A DNA stretch of 22,211 bases, from the IMG/VR virus record IMGVR_UViG_3300027733_000224, positions 1-22,211 of that record. The stretch is one strand, 5' to 3'. This DNA is from a virus. The translations under genes were made by a program, and so were the position numbers. Below the pieces are notes generated by a model. That model was given only the letters and a program-made list of their open reading frames with translations, was not told the DNA's origin and did no database searches. Below are positions 1-15,795 of the stretch, piece by piece (position 1 is the first letter of the stretch; each line of letters starts with the position of its first letter).

Positions 1-780
1 ATCCTCCTGGTGAGTGTGCGCGAACACGACATTGCCGGCCGTTTTTCCAGCAGCGGAAGCGGCAGCGTTTTTGCCTCCGCCTAGCTCATGCACGAAGAAG
101 ATTTTCCCCAGCTTGATCCAGCCGGGCGGCAGACCCTGAATGTGATGCTCACCGCGCCCGTAGTAACTGATCCCGCGCTCCTCAAGGCGCAGTAGGACCT
201 TCGGGGAGATCAACTCCCGCAGGAACGTGGAGTCCCGTGTGTGGCGCATAGTCTGGTCAACAATCCAACGCTCCACTCGGTCTTCGTGATTGCCCTCAAT
301 GTAGTGGATCACCGCTCTCGGTGCGGCCTTTTGCACCTCGTCGAGAAACCAGTTTCCCGCAGCAATGTCCTCTTGCCAGCTGTATTCGGTTTGCGAAACG
401 TAACCGAGGACATGATGAGCCGCGAGGAAGCCGCCACACTCAATGATGTCTCCGTTTAGCACGATCTCATCGGGATTCCAATCGCGCAGGTCGCCAAGGA
501 ACGCTTCGACGGCCTGGCGGTCCATCATCTGACCATGCACGTCGTTCGCAATGATGCGGACAAAATCATCCTTTGCGGGTTTCGGTTTCGTCCTCGATGC
601 GTTGCCAGCGTATCGTGCCTTTTGCAAATCTCCATATTCAACCAGTAACTCATCGCGATCCTTTGTGACCGCCACAAGCTCCTGCTTGAGCTTCGACAGC
701 GCAGCGCGAGCCTTGGTCACTTCAGAAATCGCGTCGTTGTCAGAGACGCGCATGGCGGATAGGTCAATTCCTTCAGACAT
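1..780 (-). CDS. Calcineurin-like metallophosphoesterase (C-terminus cut by window edge)
   Basis: 260 codons are open from the ATG at 780 to base 1 with no stop, so the C-terminus is missing. Residues about 15-56 look like a charged coiled coil. From residue 73 the metal-binding motifs of calcineurin-type phosphoesterases appear in order: NDVHG (D80, H82), LNGD (D111), EGNHED (N164, H165), VHELG (H231) and AHTH (H255, H257). The fold is therefore well supported; the substrate is not. Family members hydrolyse phosphodiesters or phosphomonoesters with a two-metal centre, and phage members are variously linked to nucleic acid or nucleotide processing. The start overlaps the end of the upstream HTH gene by 8 nt, which supports this ATG and suggests co-expression. 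Confidence 0.85.
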   Translation of the reverse strand, partial: MSEGIDLSAMRVSDNDAISEVTKARAALSKLKQELVAVTKDRDELLVEYGDLQKARYAGNASRTKPKPAKDDFVRIIANDVHGQMMDRQAVEAFLGDLRDWNPDEIVLNGDIIECGGFLAAHHVLGYVSQTEYSWQEDIAAGNWFLDEVQKAAPRAVIHYIEGNHEDRVERWIVDQTMRHTRDSTFLRELISPKVLLRLEERGISYYGRGEHHIQGLPPGWIKLGKIFFVHELGGGKNAAASAAGKTAGNVVFAHTHQED

Positions 781-1171
781 ATTGCTTGGCAGTTTCGGGG
801 TTCATCACGACCGGCACCCACTCGTCAGGTTCAACCTCGACGTATTTTAGGCAACAAAGGTCTTTTGCATGGCGTCGGATTGTCTCCTCTCCCATGCCCC
901 ACTCTTGCGAAAGTTTTCTGACATCGAAACCGCGACCGAGCGGAAGCCGCTTGATGTATTTCGCAGCCGATTCTGCTGGACGCCGTGGAAGCACTCTCAG
1001 CTTGCTCAGGAGCAATCCCTGATCCTGTTGCGGTGCCGTTGGAACATGTCCCATTTCAGCGCGGACCTTGGCGACCTCTTCCGCTGGGACCGCCAGATTA
1101 TTGGCGATCCGGTAATTCGGCAAAGACGGATTCCGATTGATCGAGTTTTGAATGCGTTGAGTATTGTCCAT
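773..1171 (-). CDS. Helix-turn-helix protein, probable phage regulator
   Basis: A 132-aa protein starting MDNTQRIQ; the ATG at 1171 lies 1 nt after the stop of the zincin gene, so the in-frame extension up to 1291 is rejected. There are two possible DNA-binding segments: residues about 18-40 (RIANNLAVPAEEVAKVRAEMG, pattern like a small HTH) and residues about 82-106 (DVRKLSQEWGMGEETIRRHAK), followed by a short strand-rich tail (KYVEVEPDEWVPV) that could be a wing. No enzyme motif is visible. A DNA-binding role is inferred from the HTH pattern; the target is unknown. Its place just before the phosphoesterase gene suggests the pair is functionally linked or marks the boundary to another phage module. 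Confidence 0.7.
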   Translation of the reverse strand: MDNTQRIQNSINRNPSLPNYRIANNLAVPAEEVAKVRAEMGHVPTAPQQDQGLLLSKLRVLPRRPAESAAKYIKRLPLGRGFDVRKLSQEWGMGEETIRRHAKDLCCLKYVEVEPDEWVPVVMNPETAKQYV

Positions 1172-1172
1172 G

Positions 1173-1451
1173 TCATTCGTTGGTTTGCATTGATTCCAGT
1201 GCTGGAAACAAGAGATTGTCGAGGCAGCGGACCACCGCTTCCTCTTCAAATCGTTTGAGGTGTGACAGGCCAGCGACGGCAAAGCAAGCATGAATCATTT
1301 CATGGCGAAGCGTTTCGAGCGGATTAATCTTGGCAGACGGCCCGAGTCGAATGATCCACTCTTCAGGACTAAACGTGCCGTATTCTGCGAGGTCCAGATC
1401 CTCGATGACCTCGATGCGCTTGCCGCCGATTGTGACGTGATCAGGTATCAT
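1173..1451 (-). CDS. Small zincin-like putative metalloprotease
   Basis: A 92-aa protein starting MIPDHVTIGGK. A longer in-frame ORF begins at 1565, but that extension is low-complexity (Ser/Pro/Asn rich) and lies inside the preceding 62-aa gene; the ATG at 1451 leaves only an 11-nt overlap. The key motif is HEMIH at residues 50-54, the HExxH zinc site of metallopeptidases, followed by acidic FEEEA at 69-73, where a third zinc ligand could lie. The protein is much shorter than typical SprT or ImmA-type zincins, so it may be a minimal domain. Activity and substrate cannot be told from sequence. It is the last gene before the HTH/phosphoesterase pair and directly follows the lysis genes. Confidence 0.7.
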   Translation of the reverse strand: MIPDHVTIGGKRIEVIEDLDLAEYGTFSPEEWIIRLGPSAKINPLETLRHEMIHACFAVAGLSHLKRFEEEAVVRCLDNLLFPALESMQTNE

Positions 1452-1629
1452 TGGGCGTAATTTCCGCGCACATAGCGCCTTCCAGAAGCTCGCTAAGGTC
1501 GATGGCGAAGTCGGCTGCCGAGTATTGTTGAGACTTGGCGAGTTTTCCGGTTTTGATGATGTCACTTAGCCATTCGCGAAGAGAGTGGAGCGTTTCCATT
1601 TCTTCCTGTGAGATCATGTAGACCTTCAT
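1441..1629 (-). CDS. Small hypothetical protein in lysis cassette
   Basis: A 62-aa protein, MKVYMISQEEMETL..., with no recognised family. It is predicted soluble, mainly helical and slightly acidic, without signal peptide or membrane segment. Its ATG at 1629 overlaps the stop of the holin-like gene as ATGA, and its 3' end overlaps the zincin start by 11 nt. The double overlap in the same direction is the main evidence that it is a real gene. Confidence 0.6.
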   Translation of the reverse strand: MKVYMISQEEMETLHSLREWLSDIIKTGKLAKSQQYSAADFAIDLSELLEGAMCAEITPNDT

Positions 1630-1820
1630 TTTGGTGCTTTTTTCTTAAGCAGACTCCAGATCGTTAAAAGCCCGACTGTGATACCGACGACAAGCGAAAA
1701 GATCCGCATTCCCCATTCGATCTGTTCTTGCATGCTAGTCAGCACTGCAAGCGCATTTACGGTCATTCCACAAATTCCCATTACGAGCTTCGACCCGACT
1801 GTGAGATGATCTTCGTTCAT
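1626..1820 (-). CDS. Two-TM holin-like membrane protein
   Basis: A 64-aa protein with two hydrophobic segments, about residues 10-28 (VGSKLVMGICGMTVNALAVL) and 38-57 (MRIFSLVVGITVGLLTIWSL), and a basic C-terminal tail LLKKKAPK. Small size, two membrane spans, a charged C-terminus and an ATGA overlap with the upstream muralytic enzyme gene match class II holins, which open the inner membrane so the endolysin can reach the wall. No sequence family was recognised, so holin is inferred from topology and context. The 57-aa protein at 2567-2740 is a competing candidate; one of the two could be an antiholin. Confidence 0.65.
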   Translation of the reverse strand: MNEDHLTVGSKLVMGICGMTVNALAVLTSMQEQIEWGMRIFSLVVGITVGLLTIWSLLKKKAPK

Positions 1821-2293
1821 GCCGGTTGCAGCTTGTAGGAGGTTCCGTTTACGGTTGCCGGAATGCTTGGCCAGATTTCATAGGTGACCTCGTGCGCGTC
1901 GGTTCCTCCGTGATTCGGATTCGGATCCAGTCCGATGGCTTGAGCTGCGGCTGGCGATAGCTCTCCAATCTTCCGGCGAGGTCCAATGTCGGCCACTACG
2001 CAATCAACTGAGCGGCCTCGATAGCTGGCGCGTGCTTTGCAGCCCATGACGATGCCTCTGGTGCGCTGGATGATGAGCGGAGGGACCACAATAAACGGGA
2101 CAACGTCTGCATCGATGGAGCGGCCATTGAAGCGCAGCGTTGTGTCCGGTTGCCAGCATGGATCGTGATGTGGATTGCTTCCGCCATCGCAGTCAATCGC
2201 GGCCTTGGCTGTCCACCAGGCGCGCTCTTGCCCGGTCGATTGCTCAAGCCGGATGTCGCATCCTTCGATTTTTCCGATGCTGGTTGAGTTCAT
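1817..2293 (-). CDS. GH75 chitosanase-like muralytic enzyme, probable endolysin
   Basis: A 158-aa protein with the pattern of glycoside hydrolase family 75, known mainly from fungal chitosanases: AAIDCDGG at residues 31-38, DPCWQPDTTLR at 44-54, a VVPFIVVPP strand at 64-72, then VVADIGPRRKIGELS at 99-113. D102 and E111 are nine residues apart, the spacing I recall for the two catalytic acids of characterised GH75 enzymes. The C-terminal NHGGTDAHEVTYEIWP also fits. There is no signal peptide, so export would need a holin. Placement between membrane peptides, with ATGA overlaps on both sides, argues it is the lysis enzyme. Whether it cuts peptidoglycan or another glucosamine polymer cannot be told; the family call is from motif recognition. 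Confidence 0.75.
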   Translation of the reverse strand: MNSTSIGKIEGCDIRLEQSTGQERAWWTAKAAIDCDGGSNPHHDPCWQPDTTLRFNGRSIDADVVPFIVVPPLIIQRTRGIVMGCKARASYRGRSVDCVVADIGPRRKIGELSPAAAQAIGLDPNPNHGGTDAHEVTYEIWPSIPATVNGTSYKLQPA

Positions 2294-2373
2294 GGCGTGT
2301 TATCCGGTGGGGTGTAAACCAGCACGTCCCAGAGGACGTAGATGATCGTCAACACCCATTGGGCAAGGATCAT
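2290..2373 (-). CDS. 27-aa single-span membrane peptide
   Basis: A very short ORF encoding 27 residues, mostly one hydrophobic stretch (MILAQWVLTIIYVLWDVLVY), then a TPPDNTP tail. Its ATG overlaps the stop of the lipoprotein gene as ATGA, and its own stop overlaps the ATG of the GH75 gene in the same way. Two precise coupling overlaps plus a membrane-span composition are unlikely by chance, so I call it a gene despite its size. It could be a spanin partner, a pinholin-like peptide or a translational coupler. Confidence 0.6.
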   Translation of the reverse strand: MILAQWVLTIIYVLWDVLVYTPPDNTP

Positions 2374-2570
2374 TTGTCCGAGTGGATGGTTGCGTATGTG
2401 CGGACCGCTAGGCCAGCGAGCGGCACGGCGGAAGGATCAATCCCACCCTTGATCTCGGTCTTTCGAACAGTGCCGTCCAGCAGCGTCTCGGTGATCGTGG
2501 TCGATGGGGCGCAGGACGAGAGTGACCAGACAAGCGCAAAGGCTGCGGCGAGGTAAACGAGAGTTCTCAT
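2370..2570 (-). CDS. Small lipoprotein, possible o-spanin (Rz1-like)
   Basis: A 66-aa protein with an N-terminal lipoprotein signal: hydrophobic LAAAFALVWS and lipobox LSSC with the modified cysteine at residue 20, followed by Ala at +2, which would allow outer-membrane sorting under the usual rule for Gram-negatives. The mature part is about 47 residues, with TITETLLDGTVRKTEIKGG. A tiny lipoprotein inside a lysis cassette resembles outer-membrane spanins, but it lacks the Pro-rich character of Rz1 and has no overlapping inner-membrane coiled-coil partner. The 127-aa coiled-coil protein upstream lacks a membrane anchor. ATGA overlaps on both sides support the start. The lipoprotein call is firm; spanin is inference. 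Confidence 0.7.
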   Translation of the reverse strand: MRTLVYLAAAFALVWSLSSCAPSTTITETLLDGTVRKTEIKGGIDPSAVPLAGLAVRTYATIHSDK

Positions 2571-2740
2571 GGTTTTCCAGTGGCGTTGTAGTCCTTTGAA
2601 ACGTAGCCCATGATGGCGATGGCGACCGGAACTACCCAGGTCTTCCAGTCTTCAAGTTTGGCTCCGTTCTGGAGGATGTTGGTCAATGCTACGAGCGCAG
2701 CAGTAATGACCCCGGCGATGGTTGTTTTGAGATTCTTCAT
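2567..2740 (-). CDS. Small membrane protein, holin candidate
   Basis: A 57-aa protein, MKNLKTTIAGVITAAL..., with a first hydrophobic segment at residues about 7-22 and a second at about 36-46 (WVVPVAIAIMG), separated by a charged linker QNGAKLEDWK. It looks like the short two-segment holin-type proteins common just before phage lysis enzymes. Its ATG overlaps the stop of the 127-aa gene (ATGA), and its stop overlaps the lipoprotein start (ATGA), so start and frame are well supported. Function is inferred from size, topology and position. Confidence 0.65.
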   Translation of the reverse strand: MKNLKTTIAGVITAALVALTNILQNGAKLEDWKTWVVPVAIAIMGYVSKDYNATGKP

Positions 2741-3120
2741 AGTGCTTCAAGTTCGGCTTGTTTGGCAGCGATTTCCGCCGCGATTTCGAGTTTGCGTTTT
2801 TCCACGGAAGGTAATTCGGCAGCGGAGAGAACTTGCTCGATGGCGGAAACTGTGGCAGCGTCATCGAAATCGGCGTCCTTGATGGCATCCTTGATCGAGT
2901 CAATCAGCGAATTCTTCGCGGTGAGCTCGGCTTGGATGAGTTCGGCTTGAGTCTCCAGTTCAGTTACTTTCGCAAGTGTGCCGGAATTGACATCATCAAT
3001 GATATTAGGCCAATCTTCCAGCTTGATCGGGCGCGGTTGAGAGTCGTGGGTTTCGAGAACGTGCGCCCCTTTGAATGTGCCGTCTTCATTACCGCGAATG
3101 AGGATTTCGTATGGTGTCAT
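2737..3120 (-). CDS. Coiled-coil protein following tail fibre gene
   Basis: A 127-aa protein. The N-terminal 50 residues (MTPYEILIRGNEDGTFKGAH...) look like a small globular domain, perhaps ending near NIIDDVNSG. From about residue 52 to the end there is a long helical, heptad-rich stretch full of Ala, Glu and Lys (VTELETQAELIQAELTAKN, then KRKLEIAAEIAAKQAELEAL). No membrane segment or signal is seen. Directly after the 559-aa fibre gene, with an 8-nt gap, it could be a fibre chaperone or minor fibre component; being ATGA-coupled to the lysis genes it might instead belong to them. No family recognised. Confidence 0.65.
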   Translation of the reverse strand: MTPYEILIRGNEDGTFKGAHVLETHDSQPRPIKLEDWPNIIDDVNSGTLAKVTELETQAELIQAELTAKNSLIDSIKDAIKDADFDDAATVSAIEQVLSAAELPSVEKRKLEIAAEIAAKQAELEAL

Positions 3121-3128
3121 AATGGTGA

Positions 3129-4808
3129 TTATTGAGCGACCCAGTTGGTGCCGTTGTAAAATGCTTTAGTGGTGATTGCGCCTCCCCCTACGAGAGTGGC
3201 TAGGAAAGTTGGAGCCAAGGCATCGGTAACGTATGCCGTATCTCCAACAGTTCCGGTTGGAAGCGTGGCGACGGTGTAGCCCTTAAGCTTAACCGCTGCT
3301 CCAGCGATAAATTTTCCGGTGCTTGTAGTAGTCCCCGCCACAAGCATATTGGTCGCGCCAGCATCGGTTGTGGTGCCAATGGAGACACCGCCGCTGGAGT
3401 TCATGTAAAACGCATTTGAAGGCGCATCGTTAGCCATTGAAAATGGCGTTGCAGTAATGCTGCTGTTTGTATCGTTTAAACGTTGAATGGAAAAACGATT
3501 TGACAAATTCCCGAAACGCATCACTCGCAATCCGGTAGTGTTACCTGTCGCATTGACATACATCCACCCTTCTTGCACTCCTTGCGCTGTAACGTAGGAG
3601 CCTCCTGCCGAACCGGTCGCACTAGGGTTTCCAGAAACTGTGAAAAACGCCCTTCCGGCAGTATCTGTCGTAAATGTTACTGATTCCGTAAGTGATCCAG
3701 TTGCTCCAAAAACCTGACCAGATGTGGCGCGTGTGAATGACGGTGTGGTGATCGTCGGACTTGTGAGTGTCTTGTTCGTCAGGGTCTCTGAGCCTGTCAG
3801 TGTTGCCAGTGTGCCGCTCGTCGGCAATGTGACACTAGTCGATGCAGTCGTCGTCAGAGTCAGCGCAAAGTTTCCGCTCGTCGTCAGATTATTCGCAAGC
3901 GAAAGATCGCCAGACAGAGAAACTGTCCGCGCTGTTCCAGTGCCGTCTTTGATCCCGAATCCACCTGTGGCACCATAAATTGCAGTGCGTCCTGCTACAA
4001 CCGTCGGAGCAGTGCCTTGCAGCATGACAAAATGCCCAGCCGCACCTCCTGTCGGAATGCTGGCAAAGTGTCCGGTATTGGTAGCATCGCCGCTGACGTT
4101 TGCTGTGCCGTCGAAGGCAAGTCCAAAGATATTCCTTGATGTAGCCAGCGCGGTTGCCGTGGCGACGTTTGAGGTAGTCAGGGCGAGCGTGCCTGATGCG
4201 TTTGGAAACGCGATGGCACGGTTGGCTGTCGGACTGTGAGAGAGCGTGGTGGTCGAAGCTCCGTCGTAAAGTTTGAAAGTCGAGCCTGATTGGATGTGAC
4301 CCGCAATTGTGTAGATGTTACCACCTGATCCTTCTGTCCAGATCACGCCTGTTTCTCCGCTTATTTTAATGTCGCCATCCGATGTAACCGTCGCAACATT
4401 AATATCTCCAAAAAAAGCTCCGCCAGTGGCGTCCCGCAGAACAAGCTTGTTTGCCGTCGCTGCGCTAGTTGCGTCGGTGATGTCAGCACTGACATGAGTG
4501 TGGACCAATGCCGCATAAACCGTTCCGAAATAACTTGCTAGAGTCGCCTTGATATTCGCCCATGTGACTTTTTTGAGCGCGTTGGATGCTGCCGAGTCGG
4601 TCAATGGCATTGTGTCAGCGTCAACCGGCGTCGTCTTCGCTGTCGCTGCGGTTAGAACTGCGCCGATGCTCGCGTTTGTGATAACGGCATCGGCCCCGGC
4701 TGGGCCTACTCCAGTATTGACAGTAAATGTCCGTTCTTCTCCATCTTGAGTGATTGAGAAGTTTCGAGTGTTTGCTCCCTCGTTGATGATAAATGATCGT
4801 GCCGACAT
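3129..4808 (-). CDS. Tail fibre / receptor-binding-type structural protein
   Basis: A 559-aa protein rich in Thr, Ser, Ala and Gly, with the low-complexity beta-repeat look of trimeric phage fibres. Near the N-terminus is a short GVGPAGADA collagen-like piece. The centre holds repeated segments such as LTTSGNFALTLTTTAS and the phage-fibre signature LTGSETLTNKTLTSPTI (about residues 333-350). The C-terminal 50 residues (YTVATLPTGTVGDTAYVTD, then ITTKAFYNGTNWVAQ) form a tip domain seen at the end of many phage surface proteins. Host-surface recognition is inferred. The start follows the stop of the 115-aa gene with no gap (TAA-ATG), and the last tail gene position fits a fibre. Confidence 0.8.
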   Translation of the reverse strand: MSARSFIINEGANTRNFSITQDGEERTFTVNTGVGPAGADAVITNASIGAVLTAATAKTTPVDADTMPLTDSAASNALKKVTWANIKATLASYFGTVYAALVHTHVSADITDATSAATANKLVLRDATGGAFFGDINVATVTSDGDIKISGETGVIWTEGSGGNIYTIAGHIQSGSTFKLYDGASTTTLSHSPTANRAIAFPNASGTLALTTSNVATATALATSRNIFGLAFDGTANVSGDATNTGHFASIPTGGAAGHFVMLQGTAPTVVAGRTAIYGATGGFGIKDGTGTARTVSLSGDLSLANNLTTSGNFALTLTTTASTSVTLPTSGTLATLTGSETLTNKTLTSPTITTPSFTRATSGQVFGATGSLTESVTFTTDTAGRAFFTVSGNPSATGSAGGSYVTAQGVQEGWMYVNATGNTTGLRVMRFGNLSNRFSIQRLNDTNSSITATPFSMANDAPSNAFYMNSSGGVSIGTTTDAGATNMLVAGTTTSTGKFIAGAAVKLKGYTVATLPTGTVGDTAYVTDALAPTFLATLVGGGAITTKAFYNGTNWVAQ

Positions 4809-12846: not shown

Positions 12847-12884
12847 GCGTTCGGTATCGCCTAGCCGGGGCGAATGTCAAAACT
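12847..12884 (-). promoter_or_regulatory. TTGACATTCGC element, copy 3
   Basis: Core at 12880-12870. The glycosyltransferase stop TGA (12879-12877) lies inside it. The dyad TCGCC, seven bases, GGCGA follows, and the next ATG is 34 nt after the first T. Placed between the sugar-modification insert and the first tail gene, it could restart transcription after the capsid terminator. Confidence 0.55.
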
Positions 12885-13437
12885 CGGGAGCTGCGGTCGT
12901 CATTGCGTCGTGTGTGTAGTAGTGGAGAACCTTGTCAACGTGGAAGCCCGTCTTGATGCGCTGGCGAGCTTGCTGGCACCAAATCAGATCTTCACCGTAG
13001 TTTGATTCCCCAAACTGGCACCCAGCGACCTTGAGACGGCTCCACGCGCAGACGTGCCACGGTGCTCGAAGAGTAACCCCTCCCGGTGTGAATTGTCCGT
13101 CCTGATTGTTCAGCCCGAAATCTACCTCGGATTCCAGCCCGTTGTAAATTGCTCGCTGCCGGAAGGTGATCACGTCCGCTCCGATTTCGATGGCTGCAAG
13201 GAGGCTTGAAATGTAGTCGTCCGAAATATCGTCATCGTCGTCAACGAACGCGATATATTGGCCGCGCGCAATGTCAGCCAGTGCTTGCCGTTTTGATCCT
13301 ATTGTCCTGCGTCGATTGTCGCAGAAGCAAAGATGCTCGACCGGCAAATCACCGATCTGGCTTGAGAGCTTGCTTTGTAGTTGGGCAAGTTGGATTTCCC
13401 GGCCTGGAATCGTTGGTGTTAGGATGCTGAGTTTCAT
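12877..13437 (-). CDS. Family 2 glycosyltransferase
   Basis: A 186-aa protein with a GT-A nucleotide-sugar fold: the N-terminal strand MKLSILTPTIPGRE, RRRTIGSKRQALADIARGQY (residues 42-61) positioning the donor, then YIAFVDDDDDIS with the metal-binding DxD acids at 66-70, and NYGEDLIW at 146-153 as the usual GED/ED motif before the catalytic helix. It would transfer a sugar from a nucleotide donor in the cytoplasm. It is shorter than most full family members, and the acceptor is unknown. Its stop falls inside element copy 3. With the larger fused protein upstream it forms a two-gene sugar-modification insert in the structural module. Confidence 0.85.
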   Translation of the reverse strand: MKLSILTPTIPGREIQLAQLQSKLSSQIGDLPVEHLCFCDNRRRTIGSKRQALADIARGQYIAFVDDDDDISDDYISSLLAAIEIGADVITFRQRAIYNGLESEVDFGLNNQDGQFTPGGVTLRAPWHVCAWSRLKVAGCQFGESNYGEDLIWCQQARQRIKTGFHVDKVLHYYTHDAMTTAAPEF

Positions 13438-13534
13438 GGTCTTTCTTTTTGAAAATTAGGTCAAAGTTTTCGCGGCCCTGTTTGCTCATGGCCTTGCTTT
13501 GCATTCGATCTCCAGTAATTGGATTGCGATTCAT
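13349..13534 (-). CDS. Small ORF overlapping the glycosyltransferase, uncertain
   Basis: 61 codons, MNRNPITGDRMQSKAMSKQG..., starting ATGA-coupled to the stop of the large fused protein and running 89 nt into the next gene in another frame. The first 30 residues are basic and look plausible; the overlapped part is Pro/Asn/Thr rich and may be meaningless. A run of eight A's (13541-13534) sits just before, so -1 slippage would fuse it to the C-terminus of the upstream protein. It also fills the 93-nt space between the two sugar genes. Confidence 0.35.
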   Translation of the reverse strand: MNRNPITGDRMQSKAMSKQGRENFDLIFKKKDHETQHPNTNDSRPGNPTCPTTKQALKPDR

Positions 13535-15723
13535 TTTTTTTCGTTAGTTGCGATCCAGCATCGTCCTAGCGTTTTGTAGTTGATATTAAGATCGGATAAT
13601 GCTCGACTCACCCCGTCGCTGTCAATGTCGTGTCCCGCGAAGATTCCGCCAGCTTTGATTTTAGGTAGCCATGATTTGATGTCGGCCTTGGCTGATTCGT
13701 AATTGTGAGCTGCGTCGATAAACACGGCAGAAAAATGACCGTCTGGAAAAAGCGATGCAGCGGTAGTTGAATCGCATTCGACCACGTTCACCATATCAGC
13801 GATCTTCGCGGCGCGAAGGTTCTCGTCAAACTCTTTGCGGATGGATTCCAACCCGGTTTCAGCATCGCCTTGAAAGCTGTCAACCGCCGTTATCTTGACT
13901 GACTTCCCAAGGTCTTGAATCCGCTGCGCCAAGTGGACCAGTGATTTACCTTTCCACGATCCGACCTCTGCAAAGTAATCACCATCGTTGAGCGATTGAG
14001 CGATCAACGCATAGGTATCGCGGAAGTCGAACCATCCTGGAATGTCTGATGCGGTCTTGATCCCGGCGCGGAGTCTGTTTGCCATTCCATCGCCAGTTTG
14101 GTAATGATATCCTGCATTGGATCGCGCATAGGTTTCATCCATTTCAGCCTTACCAAATGCCGGATGCAAATGCTCAAAAATGATTTTGTCTCGGGCATCA
14201 ATTACAATGCCGTTTTCAAATGCTCGCTCGCTAAACCAGTTATCCGAGTGCATTGAAAAGAACTCAGGGTGAAACATGTAGCCCTGTTGCTTGTAGCGAG
14301 CGCGGGTTAGAATCGCCATGCAAAGCAGGTTATCGGTTCGATGGCCGTCGCTGACAGCAAGAACGGCGGGTTTCGATGCGTCTCCAATCGCATCAAGGAT
14401 CAGCTTGTCCCAGTGCATCGGCGGGTCGAAATCGTCCGACATTTGGACAAGAATCTGTCCTTTGGACTTAGCGGCAGCGGCGTTCCATGCTGCGACCGGA
14501 CCGTCATTACCGGCAACAAGAGCATGATTGTGAATGGCAAGGAATACGCCTGAAGGATCGGATGCATCCAGCCCAAAGATGTGCTCAATCGCATCAGGAT
14601 TTGCCGCCCGATTTAGCCAAGTCTGCCGCGCTTTGACTGCCTGAGGAACACGACCACGGGTGGCATGGAGAAGTGAGATTTTTGCGCCGGATCGGATAAA
14701 ATGGTTTGTCTCTATAGCGTCAGCCTCTGATTGATAGCCATTGACGCGCAGGGCCATGCCGTGAAGCGATTCCCCGAGGTAGCCGTAGTATTTACTCCTT
14801 AGGTTCCATTCAGCATCAGATGGGCGCGGAATCGACCGCATGGCCCGAGTGTAGGCAAGAGCATCTTCCGGTCTAGCAAGAGCGACCATGCAGTTTGCGA
14901 GTTCGCCGTATGCCTCGCGCCTGGATGGGTCGGTAGCAAGAGCTTGCAGCATCATTTGTGACCGCTGAGACGGATCCTGCGTAAGTTGTCCCGCCGCAAT
15001 GAAAAGCTCATACTTTTCCGCCGTTCCAATGTCCTCGGGAGCGTCGCGGAGGATGTTGCAAACCTCGGTCATCGCGTCTTCCATCCGGCCAACGGCGCGG
15101 AGGGACTGGAAAAGGTGGAATCGGTGCGAACCGGTGCGGTCTTCGGATGGGATGCTTTCGAGGATGCGTAGGTTCCTCTCGTTGTTCTCAGAGCGCGGTC
15201 CGCTCGGCATGTGAAGGATGTGCGCGTTTGTGATCCGCGCAAGCTGCGGCTCGGCATGAAAAGCCAGATGTTCATGGATTGGCGAACGCCAGGTTGCTGT
15301 TCCTTTTCGGATAATCCGTTCCCGAAATACGGTCAGGCCGTCCTCTGGCACATTGTAGGGGATTTCCAGCCCGACGCAATCATTCGGCATCCGCTCGATA
15401 GCATCACGGATGGCCGCGATTGATTCCGGCGAAATAACGTCGTCGGTGTCTGCCCACATGATTAGGTCGTGAGACGCGAGAGAAAATGACTGATTTCGAG
15501 CGGCAGCGAAGTCGTCAACATGCGGCCATTCCTGCATGAAGTTCCGGTATTCGGATACTCGGCAACCTCGATCCTCTGCGATCTGCAATGTCTGATCCGG
15601 CTCCTGGTTGCCGATTGCTCTTACAACGATGATCTCGTCGGCTAGCGGTTCAAACGAATCCAGAAATCGACTTATATATTTTTCGACGTTTCCGGCAATG
15701 ATGCAAAGGCTCAGTTTTTTCAT
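13531..15723 (-). CDS. Glycosyltransferase-glycosyltransferase-like-methyltransferase fusion
   Basis: A 730-aa protein starting MKKLSLCIIAGN; upstream ATG at 15780 is rejected because that stretch contains the capsid terminator. Residues 1-150 are a family 2 glycosyltransferase: DEIIVVRAIGN, ARNQSFSLA, MWADTDDVISP (about 89-99, metal-binding DTDD) and the HEHLAF motif near 150. Residues about 185-340 are helical and TPR-like. Residues about 347-555 form a second sugar-transferase-like region (ISLLHATRGRVPQAVKAR; LVQMSDDFDPP near 426-436). Residues about 560-730 are a class I SAM methyltransferase with EVGSWKGKS (586-594), ITAVDSFQGD, FIDAAHNY and FAGHDID. The likely job is to build and methylate a glycan; the acceptor is unknown. 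It lies right after the capsid gene. Confidence 0.85.
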   Translation of the reverse strand: MKKLSLCIIAGNVEKYISRFLDSFEPLADEIIVVRAIGNQEPDQTLQIAEDRGCRVSEYRNFMQEWPHVDDFAAARNQSFSLASHDLIMWADTDDVISPESIAAIRDAIERMPNDCVGLEIPYNVPEDGLTVFRERIIRKGTATWRSPIHEHLAFHAEPQLARITNAHILHMPSGPRSENNERNLRILESIPSEDRTGSHRFHLFQSLRAVGRMEDAMTEVCNILRDAPEDIGTAEKYELFIAAGQLTQDPSQRSQMMLQALATDPSRREAYGELANCMVALARPEDALAYTRAMRSIPRPSDAEWNLRSKYYGYLGESLHGMALRVNGYQSEADAIETNHFIRSGAKISLLHATRGRVPQAVKARQTWLNRAANPDAIEHIFGLDASDPSGVFLAIHNHALVAGNDGPVAAWNAAAAKSKGQILVQMSDDFDPPMHWDKLILDAIGDASKPAVLAVSDGHRTDNLLCMAILTRARYKQQGYMFHPEFFSMHSDNWFSERAFENGIVIDARDKIIFEHLHPAFGKAEMDETYARSNAGYHYQTGDGMANRLRAGIKTASDIPGWFDFRDTYALIAQSLNDGDYFAEVGSWKGKSLVHLAQRIQDLGKSVKITAVDSFQGDAETGLESIRKEFDENLRAAKIADMVNVVECDSTTAASLFPDGHFSAVFIDAAHNYESAKADIKSWLPKIKAGGIFAGHDIDSDGVSRALSDLNINYKTLGRCWIATNEKK

Positions 15724-15739
15724 TTTTTCTTTTACGCCC

Positions 15740-15770
15740 AAAAAGCCCCACCCCGTTTCCGAGGTGAGGC
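15740..15770 (-). terminator. Intrinsic terminator after major capsid gene
   Basis: On the minus strand an 11-bp stem, GCCTCACCTCG and CGGGGTGGGGC with two G-U pairs and otherwise Watson-Crick, closes a GAAA tetraloop, followed by five T's. It lies 26 nt past the capsid stop (15796). This is the only strong intrinsic terminator I see in the window. It should limit read-through from the highly expressed head genes into the glycosyltransferase genes. Confidence 0.85.
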
Positions 15771-15795
15771 GATTGAGCAACCAACCGAAACAAAA

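Follow-up and report, generated by a model that had tools for sequence, protein, structure and literature searches.

Judged from its sequence and gene context, the GH75-type enzyme encoded in the lysis region of this virus is probably the phage's endolysin. The gene lies at positions 1817-2293 of the window, i.e. the whole stretch of 22,211 nucleotides that was analysed; the first-pass annotation, which had proposed a GH75 chitosanase-like lysin here, gave its coordinates correctly, and the strand is minus, the plus strand being interrupted there by in-frame stops. That GH75 is used here as a lysin finds support in two separate cases where other hydrolases take the gene's slot, together with closed genomes that hold no other lysin recognised by Pfam. 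Further support comes from a Pfam holin beside a bacterial GH75 gene and from the fusion of an M15 peptidase with GH75. The region is organised as follows:

1..1629, minus strand: conserved downstream flank with 62-aa, SprT-like and 132-aa genes and a metallophosphoesterase
1626..1820, minus strand: 64-aa protein with two predicted membrane segments, holin candidate; overlaps the 3' end of the GH75 gene by 4 bases (1817-1820)
1817..2293, minus strand: GH75-type enzyme, putative endolysin; 158 aa, acids D34, D36, D102 and E111
2370..2570, minus strand: 66-aa lipoprotein with lipobox LSSC, resembling a spanin in size and position only
2567..2740, minus strand: 57-aa membrane protein, holin-like, matching PHROG holin families weakly (E 0.014 and 0.047)
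2737..3120, minus strand: 127-aa protein between the fibre-like gene and the cassette
3129..4808, minus strand: 559-aa fibre-like protein upstream of the cassette, named from its place and size

Among solved structures, the best match of the window protein is the viral chitosanase V-Csn (phmmer against the PDB, E 1.2e-9), the two further rows with E above 0.5 being noise. The AlphaFold model (pLDDT 93.3) superimposes on V-Csn with Z 18.8 over 151 residues, and these two results together rule out a chance open reading frame. The next fold is kiwellin (Z 9.8) and expansins match at Z 8-9; among the matches listed, those below V-Csn (kiwellin, expansins, p97 domains) probably reflect a shared fold only. 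The family assignment is only partly borne out by the Pfam GH75 profile: a match exists (E 0.016), but its 15.9 bits fall under the cut-off of 27 bits, which is a limit set for detection and not a biological trait. The DPBB_1 profile ("Lytic transglycolase") scores nearly level on the window protein (E 0.04), and a protein of the V-Csn clade clears the GH75 cut-off with 29.5 bits. D102 and E111, to which the first-pass annotation had pointed, are present nine residues apart, and the phmmer alignment pairs them with D148 and E157 of V-Csn, which are catalytic (PMC9485262). Besides, D34 and D36 complete the GH75 acid set, and all four acids are invariant in an alignment of 30 sequences, window included, as are G37, P45, T51, P66, G84, G110, S113, A117, G129 and G130. 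The protein is 98% identical to the GH75 of the sister phage G001, and a PHROG search with it returned zero matches.

Together with the G001 sister, L007, L009 and L010, the window protein represents a short GH75 form of 158-161 aa. In the 30-sequence alignment this form lacks most of Domain-2, with domain limits as given in the V-Csn paper, where Domain-2 is described as one wall of the V-Csn cleft (PMC9485262). Therefore, we class the window protein not as a standard GH75 but as a short, divergent GH75 relative. The opener cleft of this form would suit a peptide-bearing glycan.

For host lysis, we propose that the double-psi beta-barrel GH75-type glycosidase would be made in the cytoplasm and that a small holin encoded alongside would let it through the inner membrane. 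The enzyme would then cut the glycan strands of the host peptidoglycan, presumably at the beta-1,4 glycosidic bond and with the inverting mechanism of GH75 and GH45, and the small lipoprotein may act at the outer membrane. The holin and spanin identities are putative, and the 57-aa and 64-aa membrane proteins have no firm family match in PHROG or Pfam. Viral GH75 genes are often preceded, at a distance of two genes at most, by a small membrane or lipoprotein gene (14 of 22 loci against 5.1 expected, P 2e-5); with either side counted, the figure is 16 of 22 (9.4 expected, P 0.002). These loci are non-redundant at 70% (from 31) and were scored by a crude hydropathy rule against the other genes of the same contigs. 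Exceptions to the cassette arrangement on inspection are L025, L026 and L022, which has DNA-metabolism genes around GH75 yet scored as a hit in this test; in L022 and L026 the gene lies outside a lysis cassette. In L010 (9947-13363), GH75 is preceded by a 367-aa lipoprotein and followed by a row of some ten small genes for membrane proteins or lipoproteins.

Beyond the cassette, the metallophosphoesterase (1-780) is incomplete at the window end and whole in G001. The window shares its lysis-to-early module with the sister phages L069-L072 (G001, G003), but the head genes differ, with a lambda-type portal and a GpA terminase in the window and a Mu-type portal in G001. The interval 12877-15780, which separates the capsid gene from the tail genes, contains glycosyltransferase-type genes, a methyltransferase and a TPR match; Glycos_transf_2 was found in two of 30 window proteins.

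The first exchange was found among relatives of the window that were fetched with the downstream metallophosphoesterase. In three of these eight loci (L093, L095, L096) the slot holds no GH75. In L093, a fibre-like gene (41% protein identity to that of the window over 382 columns) is followed by a 74-aa membrane gene, a 47-aa lipoprotein gene and a gene for a 160-aa CHAP protein; thereafter the genes of the window's flank appear (64-aa, 62-aa, SprT-like, 131-aa), and then the phosphoesterase. The 64-aa homologue directly after the CHAP gene is 73% identical, and once past the lysin gene the DNA of L093 immediately resumes its match to the window (2-1785, 79.6% identity). No relation was detected between the membrane and lipoprotein genes that precede the lysin in the window and those in L093; they may therefore be part of what was exchanged. 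By the Pfam cut-off, CHAP is recognised in L093 (4.6e-8) and L095 (9.4e-6, 26.5 vs 26 bits), whereas the match in L096 falls short of it (0.0024). The surroundings diverge more in L095, where a 119-aa membrane gene precedes CHAP and fewer small genes follow. The genome with CHAP at L093 (G830) ends in an exact terminal repeat of 123 bp.

The second exchange concerns a GH75 phage group with an SU10-type capsid, represented by the closed genomes G018 and G021, in which GH75 is followed by a protein of about 700 aa. Of 287 confirmed relatives of this protein the best 80 were retained; a purpose-built HMM found GH75 in three of these 80, and the upstream genes were inspected in 23. Among the closest relatives, the slot holds GH108 with PG_binding_3 in L097, L099, L100 and L104 and an M15/VanY peptidase in L098, all above cut-offs. 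For the membrane gene just before the lysin, identity to its G021 counterpart amounts to 83-86% in L097 and L100 and to 37-40% in L099 and L104; in L098 the position of this membrane gene is taken by an unrelated GTA_holin_3TM holin. L104 has one extra gene separating its lysin from the ~700-aa gene. In other relatives of the ~700-aa protein, L105 (3755-4303) and L118 (312-875), a small lipoprotein gene is succeeded by one for a 182-187-aa protein that Pfam does not match well and that is perhaps one more lysin type.

These exchanges also bear on the idea of the first-pass annotation that the enzyme is tuned to a host with N-deacetylated peptidoglycan, which is a special case of the endolysin reading and overlaps with it in our estimate. 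It would fit the measured GH75 substrate, a glucosamine polymer (PMC9485262). Against it, CHAP serves in sister phages that share the downstream flank, as do GH108 and M15 enzymes in the second group. No special host wall is therefore required, and neither the deacetylation idea nor the widened substrate range offered beside it in the first-pass annotation is needed; we consider the former unlikely.

The endolysin reading is also in line with the content of closed genomes. Exact 123-bp terminal repeats were found in G001, G018 and G021 among eight records tested (G013 over 40,000 of its 40,633 bases), and the three are therefore read as circular assemblies. Pfam scans of called proteins at E<=0.01, which left out small open reading frames, found no lysozyme, amidase, transglycosylase, CHAP or M15 in G001 (48 proteins), G018 (48), G021 (50) or the window (30). 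The earlier claim that GH75 is the only wall-degrading candidate thus holds, as far as Pfam detects, for the 30 scanned window proteins and the closed sister G001; a divergent lysin could escape Pfam, as the window GH75 itself does at E<=0.01. A PHROG search with the 50 proteins of G021 revealed no lysis family among the 25 families listed of 39. Searched family by family, 31 GH75 records (30 viral contigs, many of them fragments, and the window) gave no GH24, Amidase_2, M15_4 or GH108; the GH108 search detected the family in four control records known to carry it. GH19 and a CHAP match below cut-off occurred once each, both in G010. The doubtful GH75 matches L042 (also excluded from this set) and L058 were discarded.

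In G010, some 2.5 kb ahead of GH75, there are the GH19 endolysin (4.3e-11) and an Rz-like gene (5.5e-5, marginally under the cut-off), which means that GH75 is not always the sole lysin. Such a pair of enzymes is what one would expect if GH75 were an accessory that aids a second, unrecognised endolysin encoded elsewhere, and an Amidase_2 domain in a ~1576-aa frame of G822 as well as the pairing of two wall enzymes in M15-GH75 fusions could be taken the same way. We regard an accessory role as most improbable, since in the exchanges the other hydrolase replaces GH75 instead of standing beside it, and G001, G018 and G021 contain no other hydrolase by Pfam.

Cellular relatives give a comparable picture. 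GH75 follows an M15_4 peptidase domain within a single fused protein in a Burkholderiales MAG (L044) and in Herbaspirillum SJZ107 (L050); no further fusion occurs among 399 genomes of the same order, L050's own included, and such fusions are therefore rare. In L182, a bacterial genome of the same phylum as the Verrucomicrobia MAG L043, GH75 directly follows a GTA_holin_3TM holin (2.5e-6, above cut-off), the only firm holin beside GH75; the same holin family precedes the M15 lysins of L098 and L111. GH75 adjoins a CHAP-like gene in L045 (0.0015, below cut-off) and an SH3_3 protein in L046, and among the genes listed it has no wall-enzyme or holin-type partner in L043 and L047-L049. In L184, from the phylum of L043, GH75 stands behind an RHS repeat region in a polymorphic-toxin layout. 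These fusions and neighbours suggest the bacterial wall as the target.

Further observations concern individual cellular loci. Behind the RHS-GH75 C-terminal domain of L184 (1-2067) come a protein of 192 aa whose start resembles a signal sequence, an immunity candidate, and a second RHS-like fragment. The GH75 gene of L043 (9980-10588) is split, with an in-frame TGA inside the match. In 26 of 387 genomes of this phylum only a weak GH75-like match was found (E 1e-14 to 1e-10; L185-L196), mostly in open frames of ~250-815 aa, several with one membrane segment; we read these as a probable separate cellular DPBB/GH75 family.

In the literature, 142 viral GH75s have been treated as auxiliary metabolic genes, with chitosanase activity demonstrated for one of them (Wu et al., PMC9485262). 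In the main text of that paper the words endolysin, holin, peptidoglycan and lysis are all absent, and in the parts we consulted of a literature that includes PMC9485262, PMC12713726 and PMC8782336 and comes mostly from outside subscription journals, GH75 as a lysin was not found stated. A tblastn search with five GH75s against 50,697 phage records returned no GH75, the single weak match having E 0.4. As an auxiliary metabolic gene, GH75 would degrade chitosan or chitin for the host, or digest a fungal or arthropod polymer upon release at lysis. For such a role speaks the endo-chitosanase activity of V-Csn, which is nearly abolished in E157Q; this action on chitosan is also the one activity so far measured for any viral GH75 (PMC9485262). 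Likewise, some cellular GH75s look exported: by a crude test, five of nine Streptomyces or myxobacterial-type proteins have an export-like start, in a set left from 15 loci of which six had no called gene, with uncertain gene starts and one fragment. By contrast, such a start is seen in just one of 37 lysin-type GH75s (32 viral, and the bacterial L045-L049) by the same crude test. Since, in addition, the slot is exchanged with known hydrolases and closed genomes would be left without a recognisable lysin, a metabolic role is very unlikely. A secreted chitosanase was rejected for the window protein, which has no hydrophobic N-terminal segment or export signal by the crude test and whose gene sits in the lysin slot. 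In V-Csn the first domain starts at residue 1 in the published description (PMC9485262), which means that there is no signal peptide.

The endolysin claim is firm for the window type and weaker for V-Csn itself, owing to the context of its clade. In the V-Csn clade (25 loci, nine inspected), GH75 lies mostly among late structural genes, and small membrane genes adjoin it in some loci only. G822, which belongs to this clade and is apparently closed (an 86-bp repeat was seen with 40,000 of its 40,041 bases tested), has the Amidase_2 domain mentioned above 11 kb away from GH75, in a frame that we read as a virion protein; Amidase_2 is absent from eight of nine records searched. The presence of GH75 where related phages carry ordinary lysins suggests that the published "metabolic" viral GH75s probably burst the host cell. 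We give even chances to the wider view that viral GH75s, V-Csn included, form an unrecognised endolysin class of lysis cassettes rather than carbon-metabolism genes, and that bacteria, too, use the GH75 domain as a module for attacking cell walls (M15 fusion, RHS toxin-like C-terminus).

Viral GH75s, for which a crystal structure exists, serve as a showcase of auxiliary metabolism in soil viruses. Should they be lysins, 142 published genes would have to be read differently in ecological terms, the known substrates of GH75 would extend from chitosan to peptidoglycan, and a compact lysin fold of 158 residues would be at hand.

In comparison with known systems, the window protein resembles V-Csn (PDB 7TVL-7TVP) in the four catalytic-site acids, the fold, the viral origin and, as far as described, the lack of a signal peptide (Wu et al. 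2022, PMC9485262). It is about 66 residues shorter than the V-Csn-clade protein L039 (158 vs 224 aa), with a shorter C-terminus and Domain-2 mostly gone, and V-Csn was published as an auxiliary metabolic gene whereas the window GH75 sits in a lysin slot. The same double-psi barrel fold is found in the DPBB wall proteins expansin, MltA and RlpA, the latter two being lytic transglycosylases. Several DPBB wall proteins lack the N-terminal Asp pair of GH75, as reported in PMC9485262. The GH108, CHAP and M15 endolysins occupy the same place as GH75 in closely related phages, with folds and sequence families unrelated to it. Their action on peptidoglycan is established, whereas that of GH75 is a probable one.
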